From NCBI GenBank assembly GCA_028824295.1, contig JAPPED010000012.1, positions 1 through 48,621 of the forward strand: a stretch of DNA of 48,621 nt, written 5' to 3'. Shown here piece after piece: positions 1-10,780 of this stretch (the stretch's first letter is position 1; each line of letters opens with the position of its first letter). Below the pieces are notes generated by a model. That model was not told the DNA's origin. It made no database searches and worked only from the letters and a program-made list of their open reading frames with translations. A program made the position numbers and the translations under genes. This DNA is from Rhodospirillales bacterium. Lineage in GTDB: Bacteria; Pseudomonadota; Alphaproteobacteria; TMED109.

Positions 1-1422
1 CCGGTCGTCCTGTTCGACAGTGGCGACGAAGGCCTTGCCGATCGGGCGGCGGGCAGGCTGGCCGACGCGGGGTACGCCGATCTCTCGGTGCTCGAAGGCG
101 GATGCACCGGGTGGGAGGCGAGCGCTGGGGAGCTATTCAGCGGCGTGAACGTGCCGTCGAAGGCGTTTGGTGAATACATCGAGCATCGCTTCCAAACGCC
201 GGCAATCGGTCCCGAGGAACTCAAAGCGATGCTCGATTGCGGCGAACCGGTCGTGGTCCTCGACTCGCGTCCCTACGACGAATATCACCGAATGACCATT
301 CCGGGCAGCACTGACGTGCCCGGGGCGGAACTCGTGTACCGGGTACATGATCTCTTGCCCGACACCGATCCGCTCGTGGTCGTGAATTGCGCCGGCCGTA
401 CGCGAAGCATTATCGGTTGCCAGTCGCTGCGGAACGCGGGCGTTCCCAACCGCGTGGCGGCTCTGACGAACGGAACCATGGGATGGGAGATTGCCGGCTT
501 AGGCTGCGAGCGGGGCGCAACACGTGTGGCTGCTCCTCCGTCCGCGCGCGGATATTCCATGGCAGTGGCAGGAGCAGACCGGATTGCCAAGCACTTCAGG
601 GTCGAGTTCGTCGGCGGTGAGATCGTTCGTGCCTGGCAGCATGACACCACACGCACACTCTTTCTCCTGGACGTACGCACGCGGGAGGAATTCGAAGCCG
701 GCCGAATTGCCGGCTCACGCCATGCGCCGGGCGGGCAGCTGGTTCAGGCGACTGACGAATACATCGGGGTGCGCAACGCCAGGATTGTGCTGATCGACCC
801 AACGGGGGTCCGTTCCGTGTTAACGGCCTCCTGGCTCAACCAAATGGGACTGAAGGATGTGTATGTCATGAAACCTGAAGGCGATGACGGATTTGCCGGC
901 TGTGCGACGGAGCGCGGTCAATGCCGGCGGGCGCGCCTGAGGTTCTCAAGTTGGCCAACGCTGCAAGCAGATGAACTTCAGCAGATGCTGGGCAGTGACG
1001 AGGTCGCGGTGATCGACCTTTCCAGCAGCCTCAGCTTTCGGAATGGTCACATCCCAGGGGCGTGGTGGGGAGTGCGATCCCGCCTTGAAGAGGCCTACGC
1101 GACCCTGCCGGTGGCGAAGCGCCTGGTGCTTACCTCTCCCGATGCAGTGCTCGCACACTACGCGGCGCCGGAAGCAGCGGAACTCTGGCAATCTTCGACC
1201 ATTCGGGTGCTGAAGGGCGGCAACTCCGGCTGGCTTGATGCGGGCCTGCCGTTCGAGACCGGTACCGATCGAATCACCACGACGCTGGATGACATTTGGT
1301 ACCGGCCCTACCAGCGTGCGGAGGATTACGAGAGGCACGCCCGGGACTACCTGGCCTGGGAAGTAGCACTGCTCGAGCAAATCAAGCGTGATCCCACAGT
1401 GGCATTTCGCGACTACAGCTAG
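1..1422 (+). CDS. Multi-domain rhodanese (sulfurtransferase-like) protein, 5' end outside window
   Basis: The frame is open from base 1, so the gene begins upstream. Four rhodanese folds follow one another: the end of a first (to about base 170), then folds at roughly bases 190-530, 590-900 and 950-1270. Rhodaneses move sulfane sulfur through a loop cysteine. Only the second visible fold keeps it (VNCAGRTRS, Cys codon 388-390). The matching loop has Asp in folds one (LFDSGDEG) and three (LIDPTGVRS) and Ser in fold four (LTSPDAV), so three folds look non-catalytic and may be structural or binding modules. No signal peptide or membrane segment is seen in the visible part. The stop is TAG at 1420-1422. 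The substrate is unknown. Confidence 0.9.
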   Translation, partial: PVVLFDSGDEGLADRAAGRLADAGYADLSVLEGGCTGWEASAGELFSGVNVPSKAFGEYIEHRFQTPAIGPEELKAMLDCGEPVVVLDSRPYDEYHRMTIPGSTDVPGAELVYRVHDLLPDTDPLVVVNCAGRTRSIIGCQSLRNAGVPNRVAALTNGTMGWEIAGLGCERGATRVAAPPSARGYSMAVAGADRIAKHFRVEFVGGEIVRAWQHDTTRTLFLLDVRTREEFEAGRIAGSRHAPGGQLVQATDEYIGVRNARIVLIDPTGVRSVLTASWLNQMGLKDVYVMKPEGDDGFAGCATERGQCRRARLRFSSWPTLQADELQQMLGSDEVAVIDLSSSLSFRNGHIPGAWWGVRSRLEEAYATLPVAKRLVLTSPDAVLAHYAAPEAAELWQSSTIRVLKGGNSGWLDAGLPFETGTDRITTTLDDIWYRPYQRAEDYERHARDYLAWEVALLEQIKRDPTVAFRDYS

Positions 1423-1636
1423 TGCTTCCAGCCGGGCGTCTCGTGACCAGGCCGTATGGCCAGGTTAGGGCGCATGGCATTGGGGCGAAACGTTGAGATC
1501 GTCGATCGTTCCCGACCAGGCATCCGGTTCACGCTCTGGGACCTGAACATCCACGCCATAGGCGCGTGGAAAAGCGAGATCTGGCCAGTCTTGCGGCAAT
1601 ACCTGTGCCTGGCCCCCCAACTGCCCCGATCTCGCA

Positions 1637-1930
1637 TCAGGCGTCGGTCAATTCGAAATGCCGGATGCTCGGCGACTCGGCAAGGCGCCCGATGAGACGT
1701 GCGCTGGTACCCCTGTCCCGCTGCCAAGCCAAGTATTTCTCGTATCGCTCGCGGGATTCCCACAGTTCCACCACTACCACGTGGTCGGGATCGTCGCTGT
1801 TTCGCAGTGTCTGGACGCTGGTACAGCCATCATGAGCACGTGTTTCCGGCAGGATTGTCCTGAAGAATGCAACCAGCTCATCCCCGGTGCCGGGCTTCGC
1901 CTAAACTTCGAGAAGCACTCCTGCAGCCAT
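1637..1930 (-). pseudogene. ABM-family (antibiotic biosynthesis monooxygenase-like) gene interrupted by in-frame TAG
   Basis: The minus strand reads MAAGVLLEV, then TAG (1901-1903), then 87 further in-frame codons to TGA at 1637-1639. The downstream part is a recognisable ABM-type ferredoxin-like monomer: AKPGTGDELVAFF, DGCTSVQTL, VVVVELWESRERYEKYL and an end at FELTDA. An AGGGATGGGG run precedes the ATG as a plausible ribosome site. The nonsense codon falls in the first beta strand, so a later start would lose that strand; no good later start is seen. One base change from GAG, AAG or CAG would explain it. It is either a recent pseudogene or an assembly error. ABM proteins are small dimeric oxygenases or electrophile-handling enzymes; the substrate is unknown. 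The 214 bases between this gene and the rhodanese stop hold nothing recognised. Confidence 0.75.
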
Positions 1931-2622
1931 TTCGTTACCCCATCCCTTCGGATGTGAAGCTATCACTACTGCCGATCCGCCGTGCGCGGCCACGCACCAG
2001 TCGAACATGCCGCGACCCGAGGCGCCGGAGCCTGGAGACCTTCTCGGCAGCCAAGGGCCGAGGAGTTTCTTGCCGGTCGCCCTGGCCACCGTTCCACGAG
2101 CCCTTAGTGATGCTTACGGTTGTGTGGATTGTCGTGACCACACGAGGCGATCTTCCATCGAATCCTTGGGCAACCGATTGAACTCCCGGCACTCGATCCC
2201 TGGGAACCGAACCGGTACTTGGCGATTCAGCCGGCTGGAAGCTTCGTCACCAGCCTAGGACGTTCCTGTGACAAAGACCGGCGTCGCTGTTGTCCCCGCC
2301 TACATGACAGGAAGCCCCTGGACAGGCGCAGAAACTGGCCTGAGCCTCGCAGCCCGCTTCACAATGCTGGCCGAAGACTTGTCCGAACGTCGTTACAGGA
2401 ACGCCGAACACGATGGAAGGCAGCGGAAAGGCGCCATCGGAGGGCTGGTAGCCAGAACTACGTGAGCGGCTCGAAAACTTCTTCGTTCATTTCGGGGGCG
2501 CGTCCGCCGGCCGTTGCCTCCGGTTCCGGGCTGTCTTGCCGCCCTCGCGGTCGACCGACTGGCTTCGGTGAGTTTCTGAGCCGCCGGAACTGTCTCCGAG
2601 CCGTCCGGCGCCCGAAAACCGA
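1931..2622. other. Gap without recognisable gene
   Basis: Several short open frames occur on both strands, for example a GTG-started 65-codon plus-strand frame at 2268-2465. None matches a family I know, and third-position GC in that frame is lower than in the real genes nearby. No RNA gene or repeat was seen. Confidence 0.5.
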
Positions 2623-3126
2623 CTATTTCGGAGACTCTCTCAGCCCTTCGACACGGAGCTTGAGCGCCTGGTTGACCTCTTCATAGGTCGGTTGGACCCA
2701 GCTCGAATCCCAGAACAGCATGGCGACACCATTGTCGACTTCATGCTGGATCAGGCGTGTTCCACCCTGCGTCGGTTCCAGCCGATAGCTGTGGTGGGCA
2801 GTCAGGATGCCCGGTATTCCAGCGTGCTGATGGAGTTCCTTCGGGGCGACCACCTTTTCGATTCTGGATTTCATGACGGACTGCGTGCCGTCGGGCTGGG
2901 TCATTCGGTACTCGACCTCTGCGCCCTCGCGGATTTCGCCACTGATCGGGACAAGCAGGGGGTTCCATGCCGCATAGTTGGAGACGTCAGTCAGCACCGA
3001 CCAGACCTCCTCCGGCGTGGCCTCTATGGTGATCTCGGCGTGAAACGTCTTGCGACCAAGAAGAAACAGGATCACAAGGACGACCGCGAGCGAGACCACG
3101 ATCCCGACAATCCACTTCATCAACAC
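2623..3126 (-). CDS. Membrane-anchored SRPBCC (START-like) protein
   Basis: A 167-residue protein with one N-terminal transmembrane segment (about residues 5-23, VGIVVSLAVVLVILFLL) followed by an SRPBCC/polyketide-cyclase-like fold: FHAEITIEATPEEVWSVLTD, then NYAAWNPLL, and a C-terminal helix at LKLRVEG. The TPEEVWxVLTD and AWNP motifs are typical of the family, which binds small hydrophobic ligands in a deep cavity. Start GTG at 3126 is chosen because GGGAG lies 7 bases before it; an ATG two codons later is possible. It is transcribed divergently from the cupin gene. The ligand is unknown. Confidence 0.85.
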   Translation of the reverse strand: MLMKWIVGIVVSLAVVLVILFLLGRKTFHAEITIEATPEEVWSVLTDVSNYAAWNPLLVPISGEIREGAEVEYRMTQPDGTQSVMKSRIEKVVAPKELHQHAGIPGILTAHHSYRLEPTQGGTRLIQHEVDNGVAMLFWDSSWVQPTYEEVNQALKLRVEGLRESPK

Positions 3127-3325
3127 TGGTTCTCTCCCTTGAGCGATGAGCTGCAGTCACCGGTGTTCGAGCTGCGCTCCCTTTGCATCGCGACAGATCG
3201 AGGTAGGAACTATCATGACTTCTCCGGGTTGGAGAGGGCGACAAGGCCACAGGCGACGTCAAATTCGACCGTCGATGATCAGTTGCGGCCGGTCCCAGCA
3301 ACTGCCGCTCGGAAAGGAACCGGGG

Positions 3326-3646
3326 ATGCACGATTTCTTTCGGCACGGTGCTTATACCGTTCCTGTCTCGCGCGACACGGTAAGGGCTGATCATCCAGAT
3401 TTCTCCTTCGGCGTCTTCCGAGATCCGCCGGGACAGGTCTGGGCAGATTTTGTTCACGGCACCGACGAGTTCGTTGTCGTGGCTGAAGGCGAGCTCGAGA
3501 TTGAAGTGGCGGGAGACGTCGCCCGTTGTTTGCCCGGAGATCTCGTGCGGATTCCGGCGGGCGCCGTACATACGTTGCGGACGTCGTATCAGGCAGGCAG
3601 CGTCTGGTACTATGGCTACGGCCACTTCGAGGATGCCTCCGGGTGA
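3326..3646 (+). CDS. Small cupin-domain protein
   Basis: A 106-residue single-domain cupin. Motif 1 region is FVHGTDEFVVVAEGELEIEV and motif 2 region is LPGDLVRIPAGAVHTLRT. These give a beta barrel that could hold a metal through His of VHG, Glu of DEF and His of AVH. ATG 3326 has AAAGGA 8-9 bases upstream. An upstream in-frame ATG near 3212 would add about 38 residues that do not look like cupin, so it is not chosen. Such small cupins may be enzymes or ligand sensors; no function can be assigned. The gene sits 199 bases from the divergent SRPBCC gene and the two could share a promoter region. Confidence 0.85.
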   Translation: MHDFFRHGAYTVPVSRDTVRADHPDFSFGVFRDPPGQVWADFVHGTDEFVVVAEGELEIEVAGDVARCLPGDLVRIPAGAVHTLRTSYQAGSVWYYGYGHFEDASG

Positions 3647-4226
3647 CCGGGATTCTCTCGGCGACATGCGCCGGCCTGTAGCGCGGCGCGCCTAGCTGTG
3701 GCTAGCCAGATCGCCGGTTGGAGCCTGTGCCGGCCAGCTGTGGACCAGGTCCCGCCGTAGATCGCTCTTTAATCAGCAACTTTCGAATTCCGGCATACAG
3801 CCTGGGTCGTCCGAACACGGTACGGGTTTCCTTCCAGCGCACCCAATCGCGCGATTGTCCCCATCAAACCGTTCACTCGCAGCCATCGGCGAAGCTTCAT
3901 GGCACCGTGGGCGCCGCGATGCCACGCGACCGTGCGTTTCCATGACAAACTCGGGGGCCCGTCGCACCGTTGTCCACAAATGGCCCAGTTCTGCAGAATC
4001 GAATTCTCCATCCCCGCCGGTCCAGTCGGGAGCCAGCCGTTGTTCGCGTGATCCCATGGCCGGATGGTCTCTCGGAAGTGAATCCGACTGCCGCGAAATC
4101 GCAACAGTCATTTGCGTTAGTGTGGCTTCAACGGCTCAACCGACGAGTCGTGGATCGAGCAGCAAGCGCGTTTCCGCCGCCGCCACGCCGGTGCGCGGCC
4201 CCAAACGAATGCGGTCGGAGCGAACC
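3647..4226. other. Gap without recognisable gene
   Basis: The frame of the next gene stays open upstream to 3855, but that extension has no family similarity and the dehydrogenase starts cleanly at 4227. Minus-strand frames at 3769-4111 are unrecognised. No terminator hairpin with a T-run was seen after the cupin gene. Confidence 0.5.
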
Positions 4227-8186: not shown

Positions 8187-9860
8187 ATGAACAGCATCTT
8201 CGGTCGCGAAGCCTTTCTCGCGCTGCTCGAAAGCGAAGGCGTGTCCCATCTATTCGGAAACCCCGGCACCACCGAACTCCCGATCATGGCCGCACTGCCC
8301 GATCGGCCGGCGATCAACTATGTCATGGCGCTCCAAGAGGCGCTCGTGGTGGCCATGGCGGACGGCTACTCGCGCGCATCCGGCGACCTCAGCGCCTGCA
8401 ACGTTCACGTCGCGCCCGGCCTGGGCAACGCCATGGGGTCGCTTTACAACGCAAAGTGGATGGGGTCGCCGATCATCGTCACGGCCGGCCAGCAGGAGCA
8501 GGGGCACGGGCTCACCGAGCCGATGCTCTATGACTCCCTAGTGCCGATTGCGCAGCCGCTTGTGAAATGGGCGGTCGAGGTCAACCGGCTTCAGGACCTG
8601 CCGCGGATCGTGCACCGGGCGGCCAAGGTCGCGATGACCCCGCCGACCGGACCGGTGTTCATCTCGCTGCCCGGCGACATCCTCAATGAGCAAGATGCGC
8701 TGGAGCTTGGCCGGCCCACCCGGGTCGATACGTCCGGTCGCCCGAGCGATGCTGGGCTCGGGCGGCTGGCAGACCGGCTGCTCGCGGCGCGGCACCCGGT
8801 CATCATCGCCGGACACGAGATCGCGACCGCCGATGCCCTCGGGGAAGCGGCTACCCTCGCCGAGTTGCTCGGTGCACCGGTGTACCAACAGACGGTGTGC
8901 GACGGCGCCCATTTCCTCTCCGAGCATCCGGCTTTCATGGGCGCACTGACCCGCGACCAGCGACAGGTTCGCGACACGCTTGCTCCTCACGACCTGATGT
9001 TCTGCGTCGGCTCCGACGTGTTGCGCATGTCCGTGTTCAGCGAGACTGACCCGATGCCCGACGGCATGGTCGTGGTCCAGCTGGGGCTTCGCGACTGGGA
9101 GATGGGCAAGAACTACCCCGCGGATATCGCGTTGCGGGCCGACGTGAAGGAAGGCCTCGCCGCCCTAGCCGGCGCGATCCAACGCAAGCAAGGCCCGGCC
9201 GGCGCCCGGAAGGCGGCAGCGGCGCTTGCAGCGCTCGGCCCATCCAACTGGTCGGCGAAGCGCGAAGCCGTTCGGATCGATGCCCTGAAGGGTGCCGGCG
9301 CAACGCCCATGCCGCCGTCGCTGGCCATGCTTCGGATCGTGGATGCCCTGCCCGACGACGCGGTCATCGTCGACGAAGGGATCCTGAGTACCCGCTCCCT
9401 CCCCTCGCTCTATCCGTTCCGCGACGCGAAGGCGCTCTTTGGTCTGGGCAGCGGCGGCATCGGGTTCGCGATGGCCGGGGCGGTCGGTGTGCAGCTCGCC
9501 CTTCCCGATCGTCCCGTCGTCGCCATCGTCGGCGACGGCAGTGCCATGTACAGCATCCAGGCCCTCTGGACCGCTGCCAACGCCAAGCTCCCGATCACGT
9601 ACGTCATCGCCAACAACGGCGGCTACAGGATCATCAAGGAGCGGCTGAAGTCGTTTCACGGCGTCGAGCGCTACACCGGCATGGAGTTCAAGGACCCGCC
9701 AATCGACTTCACCGGGCTGGCCCGCTCAATGGGGGTGTACGCTCAGTCGATCACGGACCCCGACGACATCGCGCCCGCCATCGCCGAGTCGACCCGGTGC
9801 AACCAGCCGACGCTGCTTGACGTTATGGTCGACGACGGGTTCGGGAACGAAGGACGGTAG
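8187..9860 (+). CDS. Thiamine-diphosphate-dependent decarboxylase, benzoylformate decarboxylase-like
   Basis: A 557-residue three-domain ThDP enzyme (N-terminal Pyr domain, central domain, C-terminal PP domain). Seen: Glu51 in YVMALQEALVV, which activates the cofactor; and VGDGSAMYS near residue 448 with the paired NN in VIANNGGY, the Mg/diphosphate motif. It aligns well with benzoylformate decarboxylase (MdlC): His74 in NVHVAPGLGN and the His of LSEHPAFMG match that enzyme's two active-site histidines, while its active-site Ser is Thr28 here (GNPGTTE). A 2-keto acid (benzoylformate-like) decarboxylase is the best guess; a carboligase or another pyruvate-oxidase-family member is possible. The usual mandelate-pathway partners are absent. 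The AGAGG before the ATG is rather far (about 13 bases). Confidence 0.85.
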   Translation: MNSIFGREAFLALLESEGVSHLFGNPGTTELPIMAALPDRPAINYVMALQEALVVAMADGYSRASGDLSACNVHVAPGLGNAMGSLYNAKWMGSPIIVTAGQQEQGHGLTEPMLYDSLVPIAQPLVKWAVEVNRLQDLPRIVHRAAKVAMTPPTGPVFISLPGDILNEQDALELGRPTRVDTSGRPSDAGLGRLADRLLAARHPVIIAGHEIATADALGEAATLAELLGAPVYQQTVCDGAHFLSEHPAFMGALTRDQRQVRDTLAPHDLMFCVGSDVLRMSVFSETDPMPDGMVVVQLGLRDWEMGKNYPADIALRADVKEGLAALAGAIQRKQGPAGARKAAAALAALGPSNWSAKREAVRIDALKGAGATPMPPSLAMLRIVDALPDDAVIVDEGILSTRSLPSLYPFRDAKALFGLGSGGIGFAMAGAVGVQLALPDRPVVAIVGDGSAMYSIQALWTAANAKLPITYVIANNGGYRIIKERLKSFHGVERYTGMEFKDPPIDFTGLARSMGVYAQSITDPDDIAPAIAESTRCNQPTLLDVMVDDGFGNEGR

Positions 9861-10780
9861 GACCGGCCTGAATGCTATCGCCGCACGCGGGGCGACCAAA
9901 GCGGCGCTCACTTGTTTCCGCCGACCGGTGTCGCGATGGATAAAAGCGGGCACGGCCGCCCAGCGCAACGGTCTGTCCTGGTACGAGATCGAAGTGGCGA
10001 TCGGCGCCGCGACCGGGTCGCAGGGAGATGCTTCCATGCCGGATCGCGTCGGCGAGGCCGGAAATGTGATCACCAGATCGGCTGCCGGCGCATTGCCCGC
10101 GGCCCGCGAACGACTCCCGCGAACACACGAACCTGCCAACGTTGTGGTGACGGAAGCCACGCTCGAACCCGTTGCCTGCGATGCCGGCCCCGGCCGGCCG
10201 GCGCACGCAAGCCTCATTGCGCTCAGCCCCGCCATGCCGGCGGAAGTCCATCCCCACACCGGGGACCACTCGCCGCTGAGCTACCTCTCCAAGCCGCCGA
10301 TCAATTATTTTTCGCGAGCCCTGCGCAAGGCACGACCTCGAGCGACGCGGCGGCGTCAGGCTCGCTGAGCATACGCCCGCCAGCCCGCCGGTCGTTGGCC
10401 CATGGGGCGCTGTTCATGAGTACTGCGCTTCCCGGGCACAGGCAGCCGGACTGCCAGCGAGATGACAGCCTGGCGCTTGATCGCGGAGGCGGATCCGCGC
10501 GCGAAGTTCGGCATCGTTGTTGAAGAACTTTAGATCTCGGAGTCGCCGGCCCAACTGAAGCGGATACCCCCTCGGCCACGGCGTTGATTTCCACGGCACC
10601 TTTGGCGGTCGGTCCCGGCCCGGCTGCATGGCAACAGGTGGCCACCGAACTCAGCGTGAAAGCCAGCCGAACCCGACGTCGGCTTCGATGGCCGGTCAGC
10701 TCTCGGATGTCCGACCTGGAACGGGTGGTGTCTACACTGCACACAGCCACTTTGCCCGTCACCTTCCGTCGGAGGCCGCC
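9861..10780. other. Long gap without recognisable gene
   Basis: 920 bases. Open frames on both strands run through parts of it but match nothing I recognise; the plus-strand frame from 10628 is the untranslated lead-in to the next gene. A stretch at 10271-10295 resembles a tRNA 5' end on the minus strand but lacks the rest (see the rejected list). Confidence 0.5.

Follow-up and report, generated by a model that had tools for sequence, protein, structure and literature searches.

The closest described counterparts of the gene reported here are young pseudogenes of insect endosymbionts, bacteria with genomes that hold thousands of pseudogenes. That account (PMC13345370) assumes that gene breakage begins with small lesions and describes ribosome-binding sites as outlasting the lesion, and a young loss of our gene agrees with it. 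Our gene shares with those young pseudogenes one small lesion, a near-complete frame, and a kept start with a ribosome-binding-like stretch; unlike the endosymbiont case, no other lesion was seen in the comparable genes across about 14.6 kb. The relevant protein family is ABM (PF03992), which the gene resembles in scoring above the curated cut-off and in that the modeled product of an intact orthologue has the fold of PDB entry 3fgv, and from which it differs in being interrupted. No paper returned by our literature search was taken, on the portions of text retrieved, to describe this ABM gene.

The window analyzed here (48,621 nucleotides) is the whole of contig 12 of a 3.02-Mb, 35-contig assembly that is 97.86% complete. 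The features of the broken gene are as follows.

1637 to 1930, minus strand: gene of the ABM family (PF03992), 97 codons and an end stop, interrupted by a nonsense codon (translation, profile, and orthologues)
1901 to 1903, minus strand: in-frame TAG as codon 10, inside the predicted first beta strand, which spans residues 3 to 11 (translation; model of the G004 orthologue)
1928 to 1930, minus strand: ATG start, common to the ten orthologues read (codon alignment)
1938 to 1948, minus strand: ribosome-binding-like purine stretch AAGGGATGGGG (sequence reading; similar in G004, G005, and G002)

Translation of the minus strand from 1930 to 1637 gives MAAGVLLEV*AKPGTGDELVAFF...FELTDA*, that is, nine residues, the TAG, and then 87 residues up to a TGA. 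A first-pass annotation had proposed an ABM gene with an in-frame TAG at codon 10, naming no strand, and this proposal is borne out by the translation, the PF03992 score, and the orthologues. Its description of clean coding on both sides also holds: the TAG (1903-1901) is the sole internal stop among 98 codons, the end stop counted, and it is the one point at which the uninterrupted frame of an ABM (PF03992) gene is lacking. Against PF03992 (cut-off 23.1), the segment after the TAG alone obtains 42.8 bits; it shares 92, 93, and 94% identity with three orthologues from the same genus, and a chance reading frame is thereby excluded. The ribosome site placed by the same annotation at the upstream ATG corresponds to the purine-rich stretch AAGGGATGGGG at 1948-1938, and a similar stretch is kept in the three nearest relatives, G004, G005, and G002. 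Downstream of the TAG, the first in-frame ATG, GTG, or TTG is codon 51; between the two, the frame has CTG at codons 19 and 27 and ATC at codon 26.

A homologue search with the segment after the TAG covered 61 genomes, the source genome included, and 14 of them matched. The codon alignment built from the orthologues has 12 rows, 11 of which (the window and 10 relatives) are in register; the twelfth, labeled G014 but really L014 of G023, is out of register and was left out. Position 10 is a sense codon in every one of the ten in-register relatives: seven carry AAG, and CAG, AAC, and CGC occur once each. At the matching place in G022 and G045, located by offset without alignment, AAA and CAA are found; the codon 10 data exclude G023, G027, G049, and G055. 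Intact orthologues with the same start are present in G004, G005, and G002 and in five more distant relatives (JAPOQE, a Defluviicoccus bin, JAPOQB, G012, and G054). Of the three options raised in the first-pass annotation (recent loss, sequencing error, and readthrough), recent loss is the best supported. The same annotation would have been refuted by family members that start after this point, but 11 of the 12 alignment rows, the window among them, share the upstream ATG.

The orthologue of G004 scores 51.7 bits against PF03992 (cut-off 23.1) and was modeled from six aligned orthologues. The model (mean pLDDT 91.8) has a ferredoxin-like alpha+beta fold with elements in the order E H E E H H E, the first strand spanning residues 3 to 11. 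Its best PDB match is 3fgv (SPO2313; E 8.3e-10, rmsd 1.5, TM 0.89 by query and 0.91 by target, 23% identity), and Rv0793, LsrG, SnoaB, YgiN, and PA3566 are also among its top 50 PDB matches; ABM proteins are numerous among the leading ones. The ancestral protein was probably a small cofactor-free oxygenase with the YgiN/LsrG/SnoaB fold. No NCBIfam model matched the three orthologues scanned at E 0.001, which leaves its substrate unassigned. A product that ended after nine residues or began at codon 51 would, judging from this model, be without the fold. The predicted position of strand 1 also bears on whether the real start lies downstream, with the first ten codons serving as a leader. Nothing was found in favor of this arrangement, and we consider it scarcely credible: the orthologues share not only the upstream ATG but also residues similar to residues 1 to 9 of the window copy, strand 1 spans residues 3 to 11, and the next in-frame ATG, GTG, or TTG is codon 51. 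A real gene starting downstream was rejected on these grounds.

We consider it very probable that the ABM gene of the window is a nonsense pseudogene of recent origin and of an ordinary sort. Under this reading, an ancestor would have encoded a working single-domain ABM protein until codon 10 became TAG through a base change. Translation would still initiate at the retained ATG but end after nine residues, within the first beta strand, and there would be no useful restart after the TAG, given that the next in-frame ATG, GTG, or TTG comes only at codon 51. Intact orthologues with the same start exist, and the stop falls in strand 1 far ahead of that codon; from sequence and model, the lesion is predicted to remove an essential part that no restart rescues, with loss of activity. 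That the protein has been lost, and lost recently, is inferred. We claim nothing new other than a further pseudogene and a minor instance of one gene damaged repeatedly (see below).

Selection on the window branch was estimated with codon models written for this analysis, on tree topologies assumed from identities rather than inferred. In the four-genome model, dN/dS was 0.144 on the window branch vs 0.043 elsewhere, a difference that is not significant (2dL 2.52, p = 0.11), and values up to about 0.4 were not rejected for the window branch (2dL 3.75 at 0.4). In the six-genome model, the window branch and the rest showed no difference (0.134 vs 0.145; p = 0.89), and dN/dS = 1 was rejected for the window branch (p = 1e-4). 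If neutrality set in when the stop arose, a simple mixture of 0.043 and 1 would date it to roughly the final tenth of the window branch, and to about two fifths at most. The neutral length of this branch for the ABM gene (0.605) is about twice that of five fitted neighboring genes (0.21 to 0.35), a difference that may be due to chance in a gene of 97 codons. Private codons of the window copy comprise 10 silent and six amino-acid-changing ones, the stop being one of the six, as against 5/0, 4/0, and 3/1 (silent/changing) in the three intact copies; this contrast, picked after the data were seen, gives a one-sided Fisher p of 0.07, or 0.12 without the stop. A dN/dS well below 1 is expected from either a young loss or a gene that still works, and the selection data fit a young loss but do not alone prove one.

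The possibility that the stop is tolerated, with readthrough or a weak or unusual restart still yielding some ABM protein, was considered in the light of the surrounding genes, which include the following.

1 to 1422, plus strand: rhodanese-domain gene without internal stop, a conserved neighbor that ends in TAG; its 5′ end lies beyond the window (Pfam, synteny)
2623 to 3126, minus strand: SRPBCC gene (polyketide cyclase-like, PF10604) without internal stop, ending in TAG (Pfam, synteny)
3326 to 3646, plus strand: cupin gene without internal stop, a conserved neighbor (Pfam, synteny)

Toleration would explain the apparent purifying selection on the frame past the TAG, and the rejection of neutrality for the window branch in the six-genome model, together with the retained start codon and ribosome-binding-like stretch, speaks in its favor, although recent loss explains this retained sequence equally well. 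The gap in start codons between codons 10 and 51 speaks against a restart. Release factor RF1 is intact (467.7 bits, cut-off 423.25), and none of the 41 tRNA matches in the genome (RF00005) has a CUA anticodon; ARAGORN named 40 of the 41 anticodons, and that of the last tRNA, at a contig end, was assigned by eye as CAT, in a survey of a draft genome (97.86% complete) from which a tRNA could be absent. TAG is also the end codon of three of seven neighboring genes (rhodanese, SRPBCC, and the gene ending at 9860). A suppressor tRNA or altered code was rejected on the basis of intact RF1, the 41 tRNAs, and this ordinary use of TAG; the readthrough option of the first-pass annotation found no support in the same data, and we regard a tolerated stop as very unlikely.

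Damage to this orthologue recurs within the genus. The copy of G003 (L023 4971-5261) has a TAA at codon 4, directly followed by a GTG at which restart is possible judging from the sequence, and carries arginine instead of tryptophan at residue 57, where tryptophan is invariant in the six intact orthologues aligned. In the copy of G001 (L070 8002-8291, minus strand), one base is missing near codon 73, which puts the remainder out of frame. Across seven genus genomes, three different lesions are thus found in six orthologue copies, and no copy was found in the seventh genome, G006: the search with the segment after the TAG gave no match there, and the sole match in another search was weak (E 3.2e-4, 35% identity) and falls on an ABM paralogue. 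An orthologue may have been overlooked in G006, the genome being 92% complete. The seven genomes hold 26 PF03992 matches, six to this orthologue and 20 to others. Internal stops occur in two of the six copies vs none of the 20 other ABM matches (one-sided Fisher p = 0.046), and with the G001 frameshift included the ratio becomes 3/6 vs 0/20 (p = 0.008), a weaker figure because the paralogue scan counted stops and not frameshifts; both contrasts were picked after the data were seen.

The G003 and G001 branches have dN/dS values of 0.49 and 0.43, neither different from 1 (p = 0.56 and 0.36) nor significantly different from the rest (p = 0.10 and 0.09). With the three damaged branches pooled, the estimate is 0.23 vs 0.096 (p = 0.054), and 1 is rejected (p = 1.5e-5). 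The G001 and G003 copies sit in a different gene block that is common to these two genomes, and the changed location may bear on their decay. The SRPBCC neighbor lies elsewhere in G006 and G001, and its 1.5-kb flanks there have no match to the surroundings of the window gene. A single fresh nonsense pseudogene is ordinary; the pattern of repeated damage is modestly interesting and would mean a dispensable gene caught in recurrent loss, one that annotation would omit or call as a shortened protein.

The separate lesions in G003 and G001, together with clean neighboring genes, make it less likely that the TAG is an error of base calling or assembly, or a variant of a minority strain that entered the consensus, and that the gene of the organism is intact. 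One affected codon in an otherwise open frame, a window-branch dN/dS far below 1, and a source assembly that is a 35-contig draft would all suit such an error. Nine neighboring genes (rhodanese, SRPBCC, cupin, and those at 4.1-5.6, 5.9-6.9, 7.4-7.8, 8.1-9.9, 10.7-12.5, and 13.2-14.4 kb) in the first 14.6 kb nevertheless match G005 without an in-frame stop; these were accepted as real genes from the length and identity of the G005 frames, a sorting that is our own judgment, and other, mostly overlapping G005 frames that do contain stops were treated as shadow frames. Private codon changes are also elevated outside the stop, though not significantly. We regard an error or strain variant as unlikely and retain the recent nonsense pseudogene as the preferred reading.

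The gene order rhodanese, ABM, SRPBCC, cupin, and UDP-sugar dehydrogenase is common to the window, G004, G005, and G002; the first, third, and fourth are Pfam names, and UDP-sugar dehydrogenase is our own name, given from sequence. One stretch between the ABM and SRPBCC genes differs in length from that of the relatives.

2080 to 2605, no strand assigned: 526 bases, against about 90 in G002 and G005 (genome comparison)

This stretch is about 440 bases longer than in G002 and G005, and G004 has a run of 100 N there. Used as a query, 2070-2620 matched only its own genome among the seven of the genus (1/7) and none of the six others. The stretch contains one weak inverted repeat (76% complementary), and Rfam gave no match at gathering score within the window. 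A pattern scan of 1400-3700 returned no promoter-like sites (0.4 expected) and three terminator-like sites (1.7 expected). In G031, the upstream region has a 74-base match, which was taken as a chance GC-rich one after its surroundings had been translated.

Between the SRPBCC and cupin genes, about 178 bases have been deleted, with the junction at 3175-3177 and 3-base microhomology. The divergent intergenic stretch deleted in the window is kept in G004, G005, and G002, and the deletion may have removed promoters. Further along, about 0.2 kb at 9962-10174 of the window stands between matching stretches where G005 has about 4.6 kb (L072 4248-8859), a difference that is a lineage-specific loss or gain.
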